Assembly: GCA_018268455.1 (NCBI GenBank)
Contig: JAFDWM010000297.1
Span: 1 to 43,085 of the forward strand
Direction of reading: 5' to 3'
From: Actinomycetota bacterium
GTDB lineage: Bacteria; Actinomycetota; Actinomycetes; Actinomycetales; Microbacteriaceae
Length of the DNA: 43,085 nucleotides
Made by a program: the position numbers and the translations under genes. Position 1 is the stretch's first letter. Each line of letters opens with the position of its first letter. The notes under the pieces are model-generated. The model was given only the letters and a program-made list of their open reading frames with translations, ran no database searches and was not told the origin of the DNA. This document shows, one piece after another, positions 3,711 to 9,265 of this stretch.

Positions 3711-4864
3711 GAGGAGTACGCACTGTTCTCGTGCACGTAGTCGTGCGTGAGGTCGTTCGTGCGGATCGTGGCCGTGGCCTCGCCATTGCGCAGATCGATG
3801 AGCACGTGCGTCGCGCGCGGGGTGAGGTCGACCTCCTCGCGAGGCCGGTCCGGCCCGCCGGCCGTGCAGACCCGCACGCCGTTCATCCACACGTCGACGT
3901 CGTAGGGGTCGAAATCGGCCGAGGTCGTGCCGATCGCCGCCAGCACGCGGCCCCAGTTCGGGTCGTTCCCGAAGATCGCGGCCTTGAACAGGTTGTTGCG
4001 GGCGACTGCGCGGCCCACGTCGACGGCGTCACGCTCGCTGACCGCGTGGGTGACCTCGATCGAGATCGCGTGGCTCGCGCCCTCGGCGTCGTCCTGCAGC
4101 TTCGCGGCGAGCTGGTCGGCGACCTCGGTGAGCGCTGCGGCGAAGTCATCGAGATCCGGGCGGACCCCGCTCGCGCCATTGGCCAGAAGCGTGACCTGGT
4201 CGTTGGTCGACATGCAGCCGTCGGAATCGAGCCGGTCGAATGTGGCCCCCGTCGCCCTGCGCAGCGCGGTGTCGGCGTCGGCGGCATCGAGGTCGGCGTC
4301 TGTGGTGAGCACGACGAGCATCGTCGCAAGACCGGGCGCGAGCATCCCCGCTCCCTTCGCCATGCCGCCGATGGTCCAGCCGTCGCGCTCGAGCACGACG
4401 GTCTTCGCGACGGTGTCGGTCGTCATGATGGCCTCGGCGGCAGCCTGGCCGCCGTCGGCGCTGAGCCGCGCGATGCCCGCCTCGACCCCGGCGAGCACCT
4501 TGCCGCGGAACACCTCATCCCCGCTGCCGATGAGTCCGGTCGAGCAGACCACGACGTCACCAGCGCTCACGCCGAGCAGCTCCGCGGCGCGCTCGGCGGT
4601 GAGGTGGCTGGTCTGGAAGCCGAACGCACCGGTGAAGCAGTTCGCGCCACCGGAGTTCAGCACCACCGCCTCGACCGTGCGGTCGGCGACGACCTGCTGC
4701 GACCAGAGGATCGGGTTGGCCTTGGCCCGGTTGCTGGTGAACACGGCGACCCCGACCTTGCGAGGCCCCCTGTTCACCACCACGGCGACGTCGGGCTTGC
4801 CGGTGCTCTTCAGGCCTGCGACGACGCCGGCCGCCTCGAATCCCTGGGGTGCGGTCACGCTCAT
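3707..4864 (-). CDS. argJ: Bifunctional glutamate N-acetyltransferase / N-acetylornithine acetyltransferase
   Basis: Recycles the acetyl group from N-acetylornithine to glutamate, which makes the pathway cyclic. ArgJ proteins cut themselves before a threonine that becomes the nucleophile. The cleavage site is visible as [14 protein letters not shown], with the Thr of ATML as the predicted nucleophile. The protein is 385 residues. ATG at 4864 was chosen over a longer upstream frame because it overlaps the argC stop by four bases and gives [14 protein letters not shown]. Presence of argJ explains why no argE or argA is needed in the operon; whether it also accepts acetyl-CoA cannot be read from sequence. 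Confidence 0.95.
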
Positions 4865-5913
4865 GGGGCGACTCCGTTGATGCTCAGCGCCGTGGTCTCG
4901 GCGAGACCGAGCGCGATGTTCATGGACTGGATGGCGGCGCCGGCCGTGCCCTTGGCCAGGTTGTCGACGGCCGTGACGATGACGACCCGGCCCGCGGCGC
5001 GGTCGATCGCGAGACCGACGAGCGCCGTGTTGGCGCCGAGCACGTCTGCCGTGCGCGGGAAGCTTCCCTCCGGGAGCAGGTGCACGAACGTCTCGTCGCC
5101 GTACGCGCTCTCCCACGCGTCGCGGATCTGGGCGTCGCTGACACCGGGCGCGATCGGCGCGGTCGAGGTCGCGAGGATCCCGCGGGACATCGGCACGAGC
5201 ACGGGCGTGAAGGAGATCCTGATGTCGGAGGCCGCCGCACCGCCCGTCGCGGCGAGGGCCTGACGGATCTCCGGGATGTGCCGGTGGGTGCCCCCGACCG
5301 CATAGGGGTTGGCACTACCCAGGATCTCGCTGGCGAGCAGGTTGGTCTTGGCGCTCTTGCCGGCGCCCGACGGGCCGACCGCGAGCACCGTCACGATGTC
5401 GGACGCGTCGATCACGCCCGCGGCGACACCCGGAGCGAGGCTGAGGCTCACGGTCGAGGCGTTGCAGCCGGGCGCGGCGATGCGGGTCGCGCCCCGGAGA
5501 TTCTCCCGCTGCTTGACGCCGTTCACGGTGAGCTCGGGCACACCGTACGCCCACGGCTCATGGAACGCGCCACCGTAGAAGGCGTTCCAGCTGTCGGCCG
5601 AGGTGAGCCGGTGGTCGGCGCCCGCATCGATCACGAGCGGCACCTCACCGAGCGCGTCGGTGTACTGCCCGGACTGGCCGTGCGGGAGGGCGAGGAAGAC
5701 GATGTCGTGGCCGGCGAGGATCTCGGGCGTCGTGTCCTGCAGTTCGAGGTGCGCCAGGGAGCGCAGGTGCGGCTGATGTTCGACGAGCTTCTGCCCGGCG
5801 TTCGAGTGCGCCGTGACGGTGCGGATCTCGATGTCGGGATGGTTCGCGAGCAGGCGAAGGATCTCGCCGCCCGCATAACCGGATGCGCCGGAGACGGCGA
5901 CGGTGTACGTCAT
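4861..5913 (-). CDS. argC: N-acetyl-gamma-glutamyl-phosphate reductase
   Basis: NADPH-dependent reductase making N-acetylglutamate semialdehyde; first structural gene of the arginine operon. The 350-residue protein starts with a Rossmann loop ([10 protein letters not shown], residues 8-17) and has the catalytic cysteine in APGCNAST. A clear ribosome binding site, AAGGTGG at 5918-5924, precedes the ATG. About 200 bases separate the start from the predicted transcription start; this leader holds the arginine-rich leader peptide and hairpins described separately. The AGGTG of the ribosome binding site could pair with CACCT at 5951-5955 on the same RNA. Confidence 0.96.
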
Positions 5914-5939
5914 GCTTCCACCTTAACGGTCGAGCCCGT

Positions 5940-6033
5940 CGACACGTCTCAGGTGTCGGCGCGGCTCAGCGGATCTGGGCCGGGGCGGCGACGCCTGCGC
6001 TCCACCGCACGACGGCGGGAGCGCGGGGTCGCC
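5940..6033 (-). promoter_or_regulatory. Candidate arginine attenuator region upstream of argC
   Basis: Seen in the minus-strand RNA: an outer stem GGCGAC (6033-6028) with GTCGCC (5992-5987) enclosing a hairpin GCGCTCC (6024-6018) with GGAGCGC (6003-5997). An alternative pairing exists between CGACGCC (6059-6053, inside the arginine codons of the leader peptide) and GGCGTCG (5995-5989). The two pairings share bases and exclude each other. Further down is a hairpin CGACAC/GTGTCG (5958-5953 with 5945-5940). The geometry resembles amino-acid attenuators; which fold terminates or blocks translation is not decided from sequence alone. Confidence 0.5.
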
Positions 6034-6110
6034 TAGAGTCGGCGGCCCGGACGGCGTCGACGCACGACGATGCCACCCGCGAGGGCGATCGAGTGCGGAG
6101 CCGAGAGCAT
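6033..6110 (-). CDS. Putative arginine-rich leader peptide of the arg operon (25 aa)
   Basis: A 25-codon open frame between the arg promoter and argC. It begins ATG at 6110 and ends TAG at 6033-6035. Its C-terminal part reads VVRRRRPGRRL, with six arginines in eight codons (17-20 and 23-24), immediately before strong hairpins. The ATG lies six bases after a TATCGT -10 box and has no ribosome binding site, so it would be translated from a leaderless mRNA, the same architecture as several genes in this window. Ribosome stalling at arginine codons would be a way to sense charged arginyl-tRNA. Too short for homology; the call rests on position, composition and the competing RNA folds. Confidence 0.55.
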   Translation of the reverse strand: MLSAPHSIALAGGIVVRRRRPGRRL

Positions 6111-6116
6111 GCGCCG

Positions 6117-6122
6117 ACGATA
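6117..6122 (-). promoter_or_regulatory. Predicted -10 box of the arginine operon
   Basis: TATCGT on the minus strand (TANNNT), six bases before the ATG of the leader peptide and four bases downstream of the thiamine-operon terminator hairpin. No good -35 hexamer is visible; that region lies inside the hairpin. Confidence 0.5.
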
Positions 6123-6126
6123 TCGT

Positions 6127-6162
6127 GCGGCGGCTCCCCGGGACAAATCGAGGAGCCGCCGC
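6127..6162 (-). terminator. Terminator hairpin of the thiamine operon
   Basis: Perfect 11-bp inverted repeat (6127-6137 with 6152-6162, GCGGCGGCTCC and its complement) with a 14-base loop, 15 bases after the stop of the thiED-tenA fusion. There is no T-run after it; the sequence runs straight into the arg -10 box. Confidence 0.65.
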
Positions 6163-6177
6163 GCGATCGCCACGGAC

Positions 6178-8331
6178 TCAGTCGCCGAGGTCTGCCGCAG
6201 CGAAGAACGCGCGCTCGTGCTCGCTCGAACGCACGTAGGCGATCCGCATCCGCTCACGCACCTCGGGCGTCGCCGCCGCCGCGTGCGCGGAGACGATCCG
6301 CACCGCGTCCTCGGTGGCCGTGGCGAACGCCGGATCCGAATACTCGTCCAGCCAACTCGCGAACGGATGCGCGGGGTCGCCTCCGGCCACAGCGTGCAGG
6401 CGGGTACCGATGTCCGAGTACAGCCAGAAGCACGGCAACAGGGCCGCGATCAGCACACCGTAGTCGCCGTCGAATGCGCAGCCGCGCAGGTGGTCGACGT
6501 ACGCGGTCGTCGCGGGCCCCGGCTCGGCGCCGAACGTCTCGGCGCCGACACCCTCCGGTGACAGCCACCGCGCATGCAGCTGCAGCTCGCCGACGATCGC
6601 ACCCTCCGCCGAGTGCGCCCAGAACGCCTGCTCCGCCGAGTTCGGCGCGATGCGGGCGGCCTCGGCGAGCGTGCGCGCATAGTCGCGCAGATACAGCGCG
6701 TCCTGCGCCAGGTACCAGCGGAAGGCGGAGACCGGCAGGGATCCGTCGGCCATCCGGCGCAGGAACGGCAGCTCGTCGATCGCTCGGCGCAGCGGGGCGA
6801 TCTGCTCCCACCAGTCCGCCGCGATCGCCGCGGGTTCCGGCGCGATGTCGAGTCCTCCGCGCTGCCACAGTCCGGCGAAGTGACTGACGGGTCCGTGGCC
6901 GGCGCCGACCCGCAGCGCGGAGCCCGCGGCGATCGATTCGCGCAGCCATGCGCGCACCTCGCCGACCGCTCCGCGCCAGTCGCGATCGGCCGCGCGGCGG
7001 GTCGCGAGGGCCGACGACAGCGAGCAGCCGGTGCCGTGCGTGCTGTCGGTCACGATGCGTGAGCCGGCGTACTCGCGGATCGCGCCGGACGGCCCGACGA
7101 GAGCGTCCGGCGCCTCATCGCCGCCGAGGTGGCCGCCCTTGACGAGCACGAGCGCGCCGGTCGCCGCGGACAGCCGCTGGGCCTGCGCGATCGCGCCGGT
7201 CCAGCTCGTCGCCTGGTGTTCGCCGACCAGCACGCCCAGCTCGGGCAGGTTCGGCGTGATCAGGTCGGCGAGCGGCAGCAGCGCACGCAGCCCCTGCTCG
7301 GCATCGGCGTCGAGCAGCCGGTCGCCGCTGGTGGCGATCATGACCGGATCCAGCACCACCGTGGGCGGGCGATGCGCCCGCAGCCAGTCGACGACCTCCG
7401 CGATGACGGCGGATCCGGCGAGCATCCCGATCTTGACCGCGTCGACGCGCACGTCGTCGCTGATCGCGTCGAGCTGGGCACGCAGGAAGTCCGCCGGCGG
7501 CACGTGCACGGCTCTCACGCCCTGGGTGTTCTGCGCGGTCAGCGCAGTGATGACCGCCATGCCGTAGCCGCCGTTCGCGGCGATCGACTTGAGGTCGGCC
7601 TGGATGCCGGCGCCGCCCGAGGGATCGCTGCCCGCGATGCTGAGCACCCGCGGGGTCCCGCCGCTCCCCCACGCCCGGAGGAGCTTGCGGGCGGCGACCT
7701 GCGGATTCGGTGCGGCGCAGATCGCGGACACCACCGCCACGCCGGCCGCGCCGGCCGCGCGCAGCGGCGCCACGTCGTCGCGGCCGATGCCGCCGATCGC
7801 CACGCACGGGATGGGGCTCTGCGCGGCGAATGCGGCGAAGCCCGCCACGCCGAGCTCCGGTGGATGGTCGGCCTTGGTCTGGGTGGGATGGATCACGCCC
7901 ACGCCGAGGTAGTCGACGGTCCCGGCCGGCAGCGACTTCGCCGCCGCGAGATGCGCCGGCTGGTTCGCCGTGAGTCCGATGATCGCGTCGGGGCCGAGGA
8001 CCGATCGCGCCACGAGCGGCGAGACATCGGACTGCCCGATGTGGATGCCGTCCACGCGCGCGCCGCGGCGGCGCGCCTCGACGACCGCATCCAGGCGATC
8101 GTCGACGACGAGCAGCGCCCGGCCGGCGATGACGCGGGAGAGCTCGATGAGCTGGGCGACGATCGACGCGTCGTCGGCGTCCTTGTCACGCAGCTGCACG
8201 ATGCGCACGCCGCCGGACACGGCCGCATCGACGACCGCAGGGACGCCGCGCTCGCCGCTGAGGCCCGGATCCGTGACGAGGTACAGCGCGAGATCGTCGA
8301 GCCGCAGCCGACCGGTGACGGAGGCGGTCAT
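6178..8331 (-). CDS. ThiE-ThiD-TenA fusion (thiamine phosphate synthase / HMP(-P) kinase / TenA)
   Basis: One 717-residue protein with three thiamine-pathway domains. Residues about 10-225 are thiamine phosphate synthase (Thi[36 protein letters not shown]). Residues about 228-495 are hydroxymethylpyrimidine (phosphate) kinase (Thi[20 protein letters not shown], catalytic [12 protein letters not shown]). Residues about 505-717 are TenA-like ([13 protein letters not shown] with the conserved Cys; SSEHERAFF with the conserved Glu). TenA enzymes recover pyrimidine from damaged thiamine. The ATG overlaps the thiM stop by four bases (ATGA). With ThiM the operon can rebuild thiamine phosphate from salvaged pyrimidine and thiazole; de novo ThiC or ThiG is not in this window. 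A longer upstream frame to 9090 is only chance openness through thiM. Confidence 0.93.
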
Positions 8332-9176
8332 GCCGCCGCCTCCGCGCCGACAGCGACGTGCGCTCGCGCGGCGAGCTCCTCCGGTTCGATGGCGGCGAGG
8401 GCGTCGAGCAGCCGGACCGCGAAGGATCCGGGTCCGGCGGCGGCGGCCGCCGCGTCCTCCGCGGCGAGCGTGTAGACCAGGGTGGCCGCCGCGGCAGCCA
8501 CGGCAGGGCTGTGCGCGGTGGCGCGCGCGGCACCGAGGAACGCAGCCATGACCGCGCCGAGTGCGCAGCCGCCGCCGGTGACGCGCGTGAGCAGCGCATC
8601 GCCGTTCGCGATCCGGATCTCGGAGGCGGCGTCGACGACGAGGTCGACCGGACCGGAGACGGCGACCGCTCCCCCGGTCTTCGCCGCAAGCTCGCGGGCG
8701 GCATCCCGCGCCGCCTCGGTGCCGTCCAGCGCGTCGACTCCCCTCCCTCCCGCGGAATGCCCCGCGAGGGCGAGGATCTCGGAGGCGTTGCCGCGGATGA
8801 CGGTCGGGCGCAGCGCGAGCAGATCCTGCGCGAGCGCCGTGCGCACCGGAAGCGCGCCGACGGCGACCGGGTCCAGCACCCAGGGCGTTCCCGAGGTGCT
8901 CGCGCCCCCGACGGCCTCGAGGCTCGCCGAGCGCTGCTCGGGCGTGGGCGTGCCGAGGTTGATCAGCAGCCCCGACGAGATCCCGGCGAACATGCCGGCC
9001 TCGCCCGTGATGTCGACCATCGCCGGTGCGGCCCCGAGCGCCAGCAGCACGTTCGCCGTGAACCCGGTCACCACCGAGTTCGTGATGCACTGCACCAGAG
9101 GCGGCTCGGCCCGCAGGCGGGCGAGCAGTGCGGTGGCGGATTCCACCACGGAGGACGATTCCAGACGCGCGTTCAT
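8328..9176 (-). CDS. thiM: Hydroxyethylthiazole kinase
   Basis: Phosphorylates 4-methyl-5-(2-hydroxyethyl)thiazole for salvage into thiamine phosphate. The 282-residue protein has the family start [20 protein letters not shown], the central [18 protein letters not shown] segment and the catalytic cysteine in [10 protein letters not shown]. It is the first gene after the TPP riboswitch; the ATG is only five bases after the 3' strand of the riboswitch. The stop overlaps the following triple-fusion gene, so the two are almost certainly co-transcribed and thiamine-repressed. Confidence 0.95.
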
Positions 9177-9181
9177 CGCGA

Positions 9182-9257
9182 CATCCCTTCGCTAGTACGA
9201 GCTAGATCAGGTTCGACGGGTGTGCTCTCAGCCGCGCATCGCGGCACCCCGTGTCAC
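9182..9257 (-). promoter_or_regulatory. TPP riboswitch (THI element)
   Basis: On the minus strand the conserved THI-element blocks appear in order: ACGGGGTGC, then GGCTGAGA, then ACCCGTCGAACCTGATC, then a 3' strand CGAAGGGATG. These match the established aptamer consensus. It precedes thiM and the thiE/D/tenA fusion, which confirms the pathway. The last block GAAGGGA sits 8-14 bases before the thiM ATG and is also the only ribosome-binding-site-like sequence, so ligand binding may hide it directly without a separate expression platform. Confidence 0.93.
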
Positions 9258-9265
9258 TGCCGGCC

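Follow-up and report, generated by a model that had tools for sequence, protein, structure and literature searches.

A conserved arginine-codon leader ahead of argCJBDFH in Microbacteriaceae, a family in which ArgR was not found: a probable ribosome-mediated attenuator

Bacterial arginine synthesis is usually described as being controlled by ArgR, and leader peptides that govern amino-acid genes are familiar elsewhere from his, thr and phe. Leaderless polycysteine attenuators reportedly occur in mycobacteria (work attributed to Canestrari, 2020); the locus described here likewise appears to be of leaderless type with runs of regulatory codons, cysteine there and arginine here. Actinobacterial amino-acid leader peptides have been described for trp, leu, ilv and cys (excerpts of PMC11857589 and PMC1262725). 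Specifically, C. glutamicum ilvBNC, which is also discussed as leaderless (PMC11857589, in part), and M. tuberculosis ilvB1 (PMC13236596, in part) each have a leader-peptide attenuator with a terminator hairpin. The argC leader would share with both the regulatory codons and alternative RNA shapes gated by ribosome position but, unlike them, shows no terminator between 5850 and 6300. Actinobacterial Cys leaders are described, in the available portion of PMC1262725, as having regulatory codon runs near the stop and no conserved terminator hairpins, with Rho suggested. The argC leader resembles these in being a short ORF ahead of a biosynthetic operon with its codons near the stop and no terminator hairpin, but the Cys leaders sense cysteine. 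That report also notes no conserved RNA structures upstream of arginine operons in the actinobacteria it covers, Leifsonia xyli among them.

By analogy, the nearest mechanism is that of Salmonella orf34-speF (SpeFL; DUF2618/PF10940), where Arg codons sense arginine, ribosome pausing at them is proposed to allow a "downstream of stop" hairpin, and Rho is involved (excerpts of PMC6386406). Both loci have a short ORF with Arg codons and a hairpin downstream of its stop codon. As far as those excerpts go, orf34-speF differs in that it controls ornithine decarboxylase, has a Shine-Dalgarno sequence, uses the codons AGG and CGG and includes RNase G decay. The argC leader peptide, in contrast to SpeFL, had no Pfam match; 0 families, SpeFL/DUF2618 included, were found at E<=1, a weak test for 25 residues. 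The initial annotation had stated that no arginine attenuator of this kind is described. This needs narrowing, given that orf34-speF does sense arginine through Arg codons, although the excerpts of PMC6386406 describe control of a polyamine gene. Among the matches listed from the open-licence full-text literature, a scope that leaves out most subscription papers and preprints, we found no Arg leader for bacterial arginine biosynthesis, and a word search of the main text of two genome-wide RNA surveys (PMC11109978, PMC8632094) gave no arg leader.

The window analysed here is a 43,085-nt stretch of DNA from a member of the Microbacteriaceae. The genes 3' of the leader are argC-J-B-D-F by Pfam, followed by argH, which is cut by the window end and matches Lyase_1, and on the upstream side a thiamine gene fusion ends at 6178. 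The features, all on the minus strand, are as follows.

6144..6149, minus strand: GATTTG, -35-region motif of the leader promoter, conserved as GATT[TGC]G 21 nt ahead of the -10 box
6117..6122, minus strand: TATCGT, -10 box by conservation and spacing, with a predicted start at the ATG
6033..6110, minus strand: leader ORF, 25 codons plus TAG, by frame and conservation
6051..6062, minus strand: upstream Arg cluster CGT CGA CGC CGT, codons 17-20 (Arg frequency 0.42-0.63 at offsets -9 to -5)
6039..6044, minus strand: terminal Arg pair CGC CGA, codons 23-24 (Arg frequency 1.00 at -2, 0.69 at -3)
5987..6033, minus strand: hairpin P3 ("downstream of stop"), 5' arm GGCGACCC at 6033-6026 and 3' arm GG.GTCGCC at 5995-5987
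5931..5986, minus strand: stretch from P3 to the argC ribosome-binding site, C > G, a possible Rho-loading site
5920..5925, minus strand: TAAGGT, argC Shine-Dalgarno by sequence match (AAGG 5924-5921)
4861..5913, minus strand: argC by Pfam, first gene of argCJBDFH, ATG at 5913

The leader ORF runs from the ATG at 6110 (MLSAPHSIALAGGIVVRRRRPGRRL) to the TAG at 6035-6033, holds six Arg codons and ends 119 nt before the argC ATG. The 25-codon frame ending VVRRRRPGRRL, the TATCGT box and the six-base gap to the ATG are all present as the initial annotation had described them. No more than six bases separate TATCGT from the ATG, which suggests a leaderless leader transcript. A sigma-70 consensus scan of 5850-6300 returned no promoter, and the -10 box is called from conservation and spacing. 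Specifically, the box-to-ATG spacing is 6 or 7 nt in 79/79 Microbacterium-type leader rows and in 78/80 leader rows of other genera (5-8 allowed), and GATT[TGC]G lies 21 nt 5' of the box in 72/79 and 26/80 rows, respectively. At gathering scores Rfam gave no T-box or other match in the leader; the sole match in the whole window is a TPP riboswitch (RF00059, 72.5 bits) at 9167-9261 (minus strand), ahead of the thiamine genes located before argC. After these thiamine genes, window positions 6127-6162 form an inverted repeat (GCGGCGGCTCC/GGAGCCGCCGC) the loop of which holds the GATTTG of the leader, with a similar arrangement in L001, so the end of the thiamine operon and the leader promoter may overlap.

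The leader element is real and recurs beyond chance. A strict criterion (TANNNT, 5-7 nt, ATG or GTG, 15-40 codons with five or more Arg, and RR within the final two thirds) recovered it in 79/80 Microbacterium-type argC upstreams, which are the best 80 of 572 ArgC relatives with the window included (nearly all Microbacterium, with L077 from Frigoribacterium sp. JB110 and a handful of unclassified records among them), L027 being the exception. Among other genera it was recovered in 77/103 argC upstreams from 29 of the 49 genera sampled; L025 and L164, which run into contig ends, were dropped before this count. Dinucleotide shuffles (40 rounds) gave on average 0.1 and 0.28 matches in the two sets, with at most one in any round, and the reverse strand gave 2 and 1. 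A relaxed rule, allowing a spacing of 5-8 nt and T or C as the last base of the box, places the leader in 159/185 rows and 30/49 sampled genera. The remaining 19 genera, most of which rest on one genome, include none that carries the leader by this rule, although one of them (g24) has by eye a leader with a 9-nt spacing; such gaps in a family where ArgR was not found count against the attenuator reading. Other genera were taken where their argC was among the listed best matches (49 of 85 genera counted), and the sample thus leans to closer relatives. Genomes of the window's own genus (L111-L116) were kept out of these counts and checked apart; the leader is present in 5/5 that could be assessed, L111 being the window's own and L113 ending at a contig edge. 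Both the ORF and its Arg codons are thus kept in close relatives, the point on which the initial annotation had staked its proposal.

With the exact motif, the ATG and TAGGCGAC are a whole number of codons apart in 73/73 assessable rows out of 81, even though 12 different ORF lengths occur among 74 rows and the spacer to argC shows no phase. A looser motif puts 60/79 rows in one phase and 19/79 in another, and we take the conclusion from the exact motif. Entropy by codon position is 0.76, 0.66 and 0.83, only slightly higher at the third position. Given this weak signature, the case is carried by the frame and the Arg codons and not by a general coding signature. In-frame insertions also occur within the leader ORF: L023, L033 and L038 have a 30-nt insertion that resembles a dispersed repeat, and L005, L042, L061 and L069 have further inserts.

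Arginine is encoded in the leader by a distinct choice of codons. CGC, CGA and CGT account for 495/507 leader Arg codons in Microbacterium-type rows and 573/622 in the others. CGA makes up 162/507 (32%) and 164/622 (26%) in the leaders as opposed to 1/96 in window argCJBDF, and CGG makes up 11/507 (2%) and 49/622 (8%) as opposed to 25/96 (26%), all raw counts that ignore kinship. An inosine-bearing tRNA-Arg reads CGA and CGC in E. coli (PMC10325894, in part), and one inosine-type tRNA-Arg presumably reads both codons in these bacteria as well. The placement of Arg is likewise constrained, with a genus-averaged frequency before P3 of 1.00 at codon -2 (29 genera; the anchor required Arg at -3 to -1, which 113/114 rows had, while L146 lacks the P3 anchor), 0.69 at -3, 0.00 at -4 and 0.42-0.63 at codons -9 to -5. 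Leader residues other than Arg vary from genus to genus. Conservation of the frame, of Arg codon choice and of Arg position in peptides that are otherwise variable argues for sensing of charged tRNA-Arg, and from these sequence features we regard the leader as very probably Arg-sensing.

Peptides such as the fungal arginine attenuator peptide and SpeFL arrest their own ribosome, and an arresting nascent peptide that senses free arginine or ornithine from the exit tunnel would also fit a short conserved peptide with an Arg-rich C-terminus ahead of an arginine gene. We consider this very unlikely, as the non-Arg residues differ among genera and the shift to CGA, CGC and CGU is not explained by peptide sequence.

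The initial annotation had remarked that the operon lacks argR, and this extends much further than the operon. In the window's whole genome (99.97% complete) no ArgR was found, each ArgR domain scoring 0/1, and the searches of Microbacteriaceae returned the C-terminal domain in 0/299 genomes and the N-terminal domain in 0/150, with positive controls found in 8/14 and 9/14. Across the order ArgR is present in 181/198 genomes; the 17 without it comprise 14 Microbacteriaceae and 3 others, leaving 181/184 with ArgR outside the family. Arginine control of arg genes by ArgR/AhrC is in this respect comparable in outcome, but ArgR was not found in the Microbacteriaceae genomes searched. R1, a model of the leader, gave matches in 115/299 Microbacteriaceae genomes at E<=0.1 (about 30 by chance), 43 of them at E<0.001 among the matches listed. 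Outside the family but within the order, R1 matched 11/184 genomes at E<=0.05, which is about the chance level (G379 among them, at 7.4e-4). Because the element recurs in many genera of a family without ArgR, ribosome-based sensing of arginine shortage is probable, and in the genera that carry it the leader element probably took over the role of ArgR. The absence of ArgR throughout the family and a leader whose matches elsewhere do not exceed chance suggest that one mode of control replaced another. The genera of this ArgR-less family, 30 in which the leader was detected and 19 in which it was not, form a natural series for testing how control was replaced. The argG upstreams of the window's genus have no like leader at 15/15 loci. 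These same loci (L228-L237, L240, L241, L243-L245) show a TAGACT- or TAGAAT-like box 6-7 nt ahead of the argG ATG, and argG itself therefore looks leaderless.

We also analysed the RNA structure around the leader stop codon. In the window, the third base of the stop codon is also the first base of P3, and in most genera the hairpin is about 45-60 nt long. Its genus-mean z over a fixed 60-nt interval is -2.76, with 30/30 genera below 0 and 28 below -1, as compared to -0.04, -0.30 and -0.05 in control windows shifted by -60, -30 and +30. When the ends were picked by best energy, the mean z was -3.2, with 29/29 genera below 0, a result biased by the choice of ends. Rows from genera other than Microbacterium place the leader stop 5-8 codons inside P3 rather than at its base in 20/60 cases, and still keep the P3 arms. 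An alignment of 42 of 50 reference sequences (A2; L002, L004, L005, L173, L177, L178, L200 and L221 omitted) has basal P3 cells paired in 91.7%, versus 18-68% when slid and 90.6% when shuffled. The covariation that the initial annotation had offered as a check on its stems is not seen above shuffles: basal P3 scores 0.098 versus 0.095 when shuffled, four of its eight pairs are invariant, and RNAalifold on A2 retains just these four. Since covariation does not exceed shuffles, P3 is supported by energy and position.

Two mutually exclusive pairings had been proposed, and both exist in the window, CGACGCC 6059-6053 with GGCGTCG 5995-5989 and GGCGAC 6033-6028 with GTCGCC 5992-5987. Only the second, the stop-codon hairpin, is conserved, and the two are not supported as a conserved switch. 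The first, between upstream Arg codons and the P3 3' arm, was rejected in that role, the mean being 5.85 nt versus 5.69 nt in codon-shuffled sequences (29 genera), although it exceeds the null in Microbacterium (7.2 versus 6.2) and a few others. A possible zone for an alternative helix after P3 has z -0.70, with 20/29 genera below 0. RNAduplex mean z values were -0.83 and -0.35 for the 2:3 pairing and -0.26 and -0.39 for 3:4, which are uninformative in GC-rich RNA.

The locus has an ORF with tandem codons for the product of the operon that follows and a conserved RNA structure placed for control by a ribosome (judged by geometry, with translation presumed), features expected of leader-peptide attenuators. 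On this sequence basis it is probably a ribosome-mediated attenuator that controls the arginine operon by sensing charged tRNA-Arg. Transcription would start at the AUG of the Arg-rich leader ORF, as the -10 spacing suggests. When charged tRNA-Arg is scarce, mainly that reading CGU, CGC and CGA, the ribosome would pause at leader Arg codons, and when it is ample the ribosome would reach the stop codon; this codon is part of the P3 5' arm in the window and in most genera with the leader. Given this geometry the position of the ribosome would decide whether P3 forms. With the ribosome leading edge set 12 nt after the first A-site base, 113/113 rows have at least one Arg codon where a stall leaves the P3 arm free (genus mean 5.5 upstream codons) and at least one where a stall covers it.

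Which state P3 represents is, in our estimate, an even bet on ON. By analogy to orf34-speF, ribosomes stalled at the upstream Arg cluster would let P3 form and transcription enter argC, while an unstalled ribosome at the stop would block P3 and leave the C-rich stretch open to early termination, perhaps by Rho. Geometry counts against this assignment in one respect, as a stall at the terminal Arg would leave P3 masked by the ribosome. The opposite polarity, somewhat less probable, takes P3 as the OFF state, an aid to pausing or termination: a terminal-Arg stall covers the GGCG base of P3 and argC is on, whereas a ribosome that finishes leaves, P3 forms and argC is off. Consistent with it, Arg occupies codon -2 in all 29 genera (anchored), where a stall covers the invariant P3 GGCG, each of the 113 rows carries one or more Arg with this property, and actinobacterial Cys leaders likewise carry their codons near the stop (PMC1262725, in part). 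The upstream Arg codons present in all 113 rows argue otherwise; their stalls leave P3 free, so under this polarity severe starvation would turn the operon off. An output at transcription rather than translation is slightly favoured. A further idea, which we advance tentatively as possible rather than likely, is that ArgR was given up family-wide and that many genera use a leaderless two-stage ribosome sensor, in which the upstream Arg cluster frees P3 and the terminal Arg covers it, so that mild and severe shortage would give different outputs without an intrinsic terminator.

Regarding how transcription might end, no intrinsic terminator (GC-rich hairpin plus U run) was found in 5850-6300, and TTTT occurs between the leader stop and argC in 5/159 rows. 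The stretch from P3 to argC has genus means of 37% C and 22% G, with C > G in 28/28 genera, a count that takes in some Shine-Dalgarno bases in other genera because the argC start of loci L141-L222 was set one base off; the leader and P3 counts, which used the same starts, are hardly affected. The C excess is mild, as the genus mean is equalled or exceeded in 11.7% of background windows, and the window itself has 23 C and 19 G in 56. This stretch is slightly less structured than shuffles (z +0.31).

A Shine-Dalgarno sequence precedes argC in 79/79 Microbacterium-type and 77/80 other leader rows; among the three without one, two apparently have a start called too far downstream and one reads TAAGTTGG. 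Control of translation, with leader conformations that hide or free this Shine-Dalgarno, would be one way to use it. State-constrained folding shows a weak tendency in that direction, with the Shine-Dalgarno more open by >0.1 when stalled in 21/79 and 16/80 rows and the reverse in 4 and 5. However, mean openness differs little (0.476 versus 0.417 and 0.541 versus 0.516), only 19/30 genera go in the expected direction and the Shine-Dalgarno lies outside P3. Sequestration as the control is not supported by so small a difference with mixed sign across genera, and we regard attenuation of translation as improbable.

It is also very unlikely that there is no attenuation at all, that is, a promoter with an unrelated small protein or a structural 5' UTR, and argC expressed constitutively or from TAAGGT. 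Such a view can draw on TAAGGT, which is -10-like in 79/79 Microbacterium-type leader rows and in 58/77 other rows that match NNAGGN. But in other genera the outer bases drift and AGG is kept (TAAGGC 6, AAAGGT 3, GAAGGT 3, CAAGGA 2, AAAGGA 2), and we rejected TAAGGT as a -10 box alone. Moreover the frame, the Arg codon choice and their placement relative to P3 are all conserved. From its TANNNT form, TAAGGT could possibly serve also as a second, leaderless argC promoter.

Additional analysis of the 24 other-genus rows without a detected leader revealed 12 (12 genera) with a leaderless-type argC, defined as TANNNT and no Shine-Dalgarno (g5 being ambiguous), and 12 with a Shine-Dalgarno. The leader is absent in all 12 genera with a leaderless-type argC (Fisher p 5e-7, ignoring kinship), which fits a leader and argC that are carried on one mRNA. 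Eleven loci (L140, L145, L148, L151, L160, L161, L166, L170, L171, L175, L176) combine no leader with a leaderless-type argC in the family without ArgR.

Finally, several loci bear a resemblance to the end of pheT. In L141, L154 and L156 (g5, g32, g36) no leader ORF was detected, and the pheT 3' end (..RFGATLRD* or like) carries GGCGAC opposite a stretch of GTCGCC or CGCCGCC type ahead of argC, as though it supplied the P3 5' arm; folding of L141 gives -23.1 kcal/mol. In L143, L159, L173, L178 and others the leader reads through, and its tail (R L S A T S P R *) resembles the C-terminus of pheT (R F G A T L R E *) in length and look, with the stop at +6 codons in 8 genera. Identity between leader tail and pheT tail is 0.45 versus 0.29 when codon-shuffled, a comparison that is biased because it is anchored on Arg and GGCG. 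From this resemblance the leader tail may possibly derive from the pheT tail.
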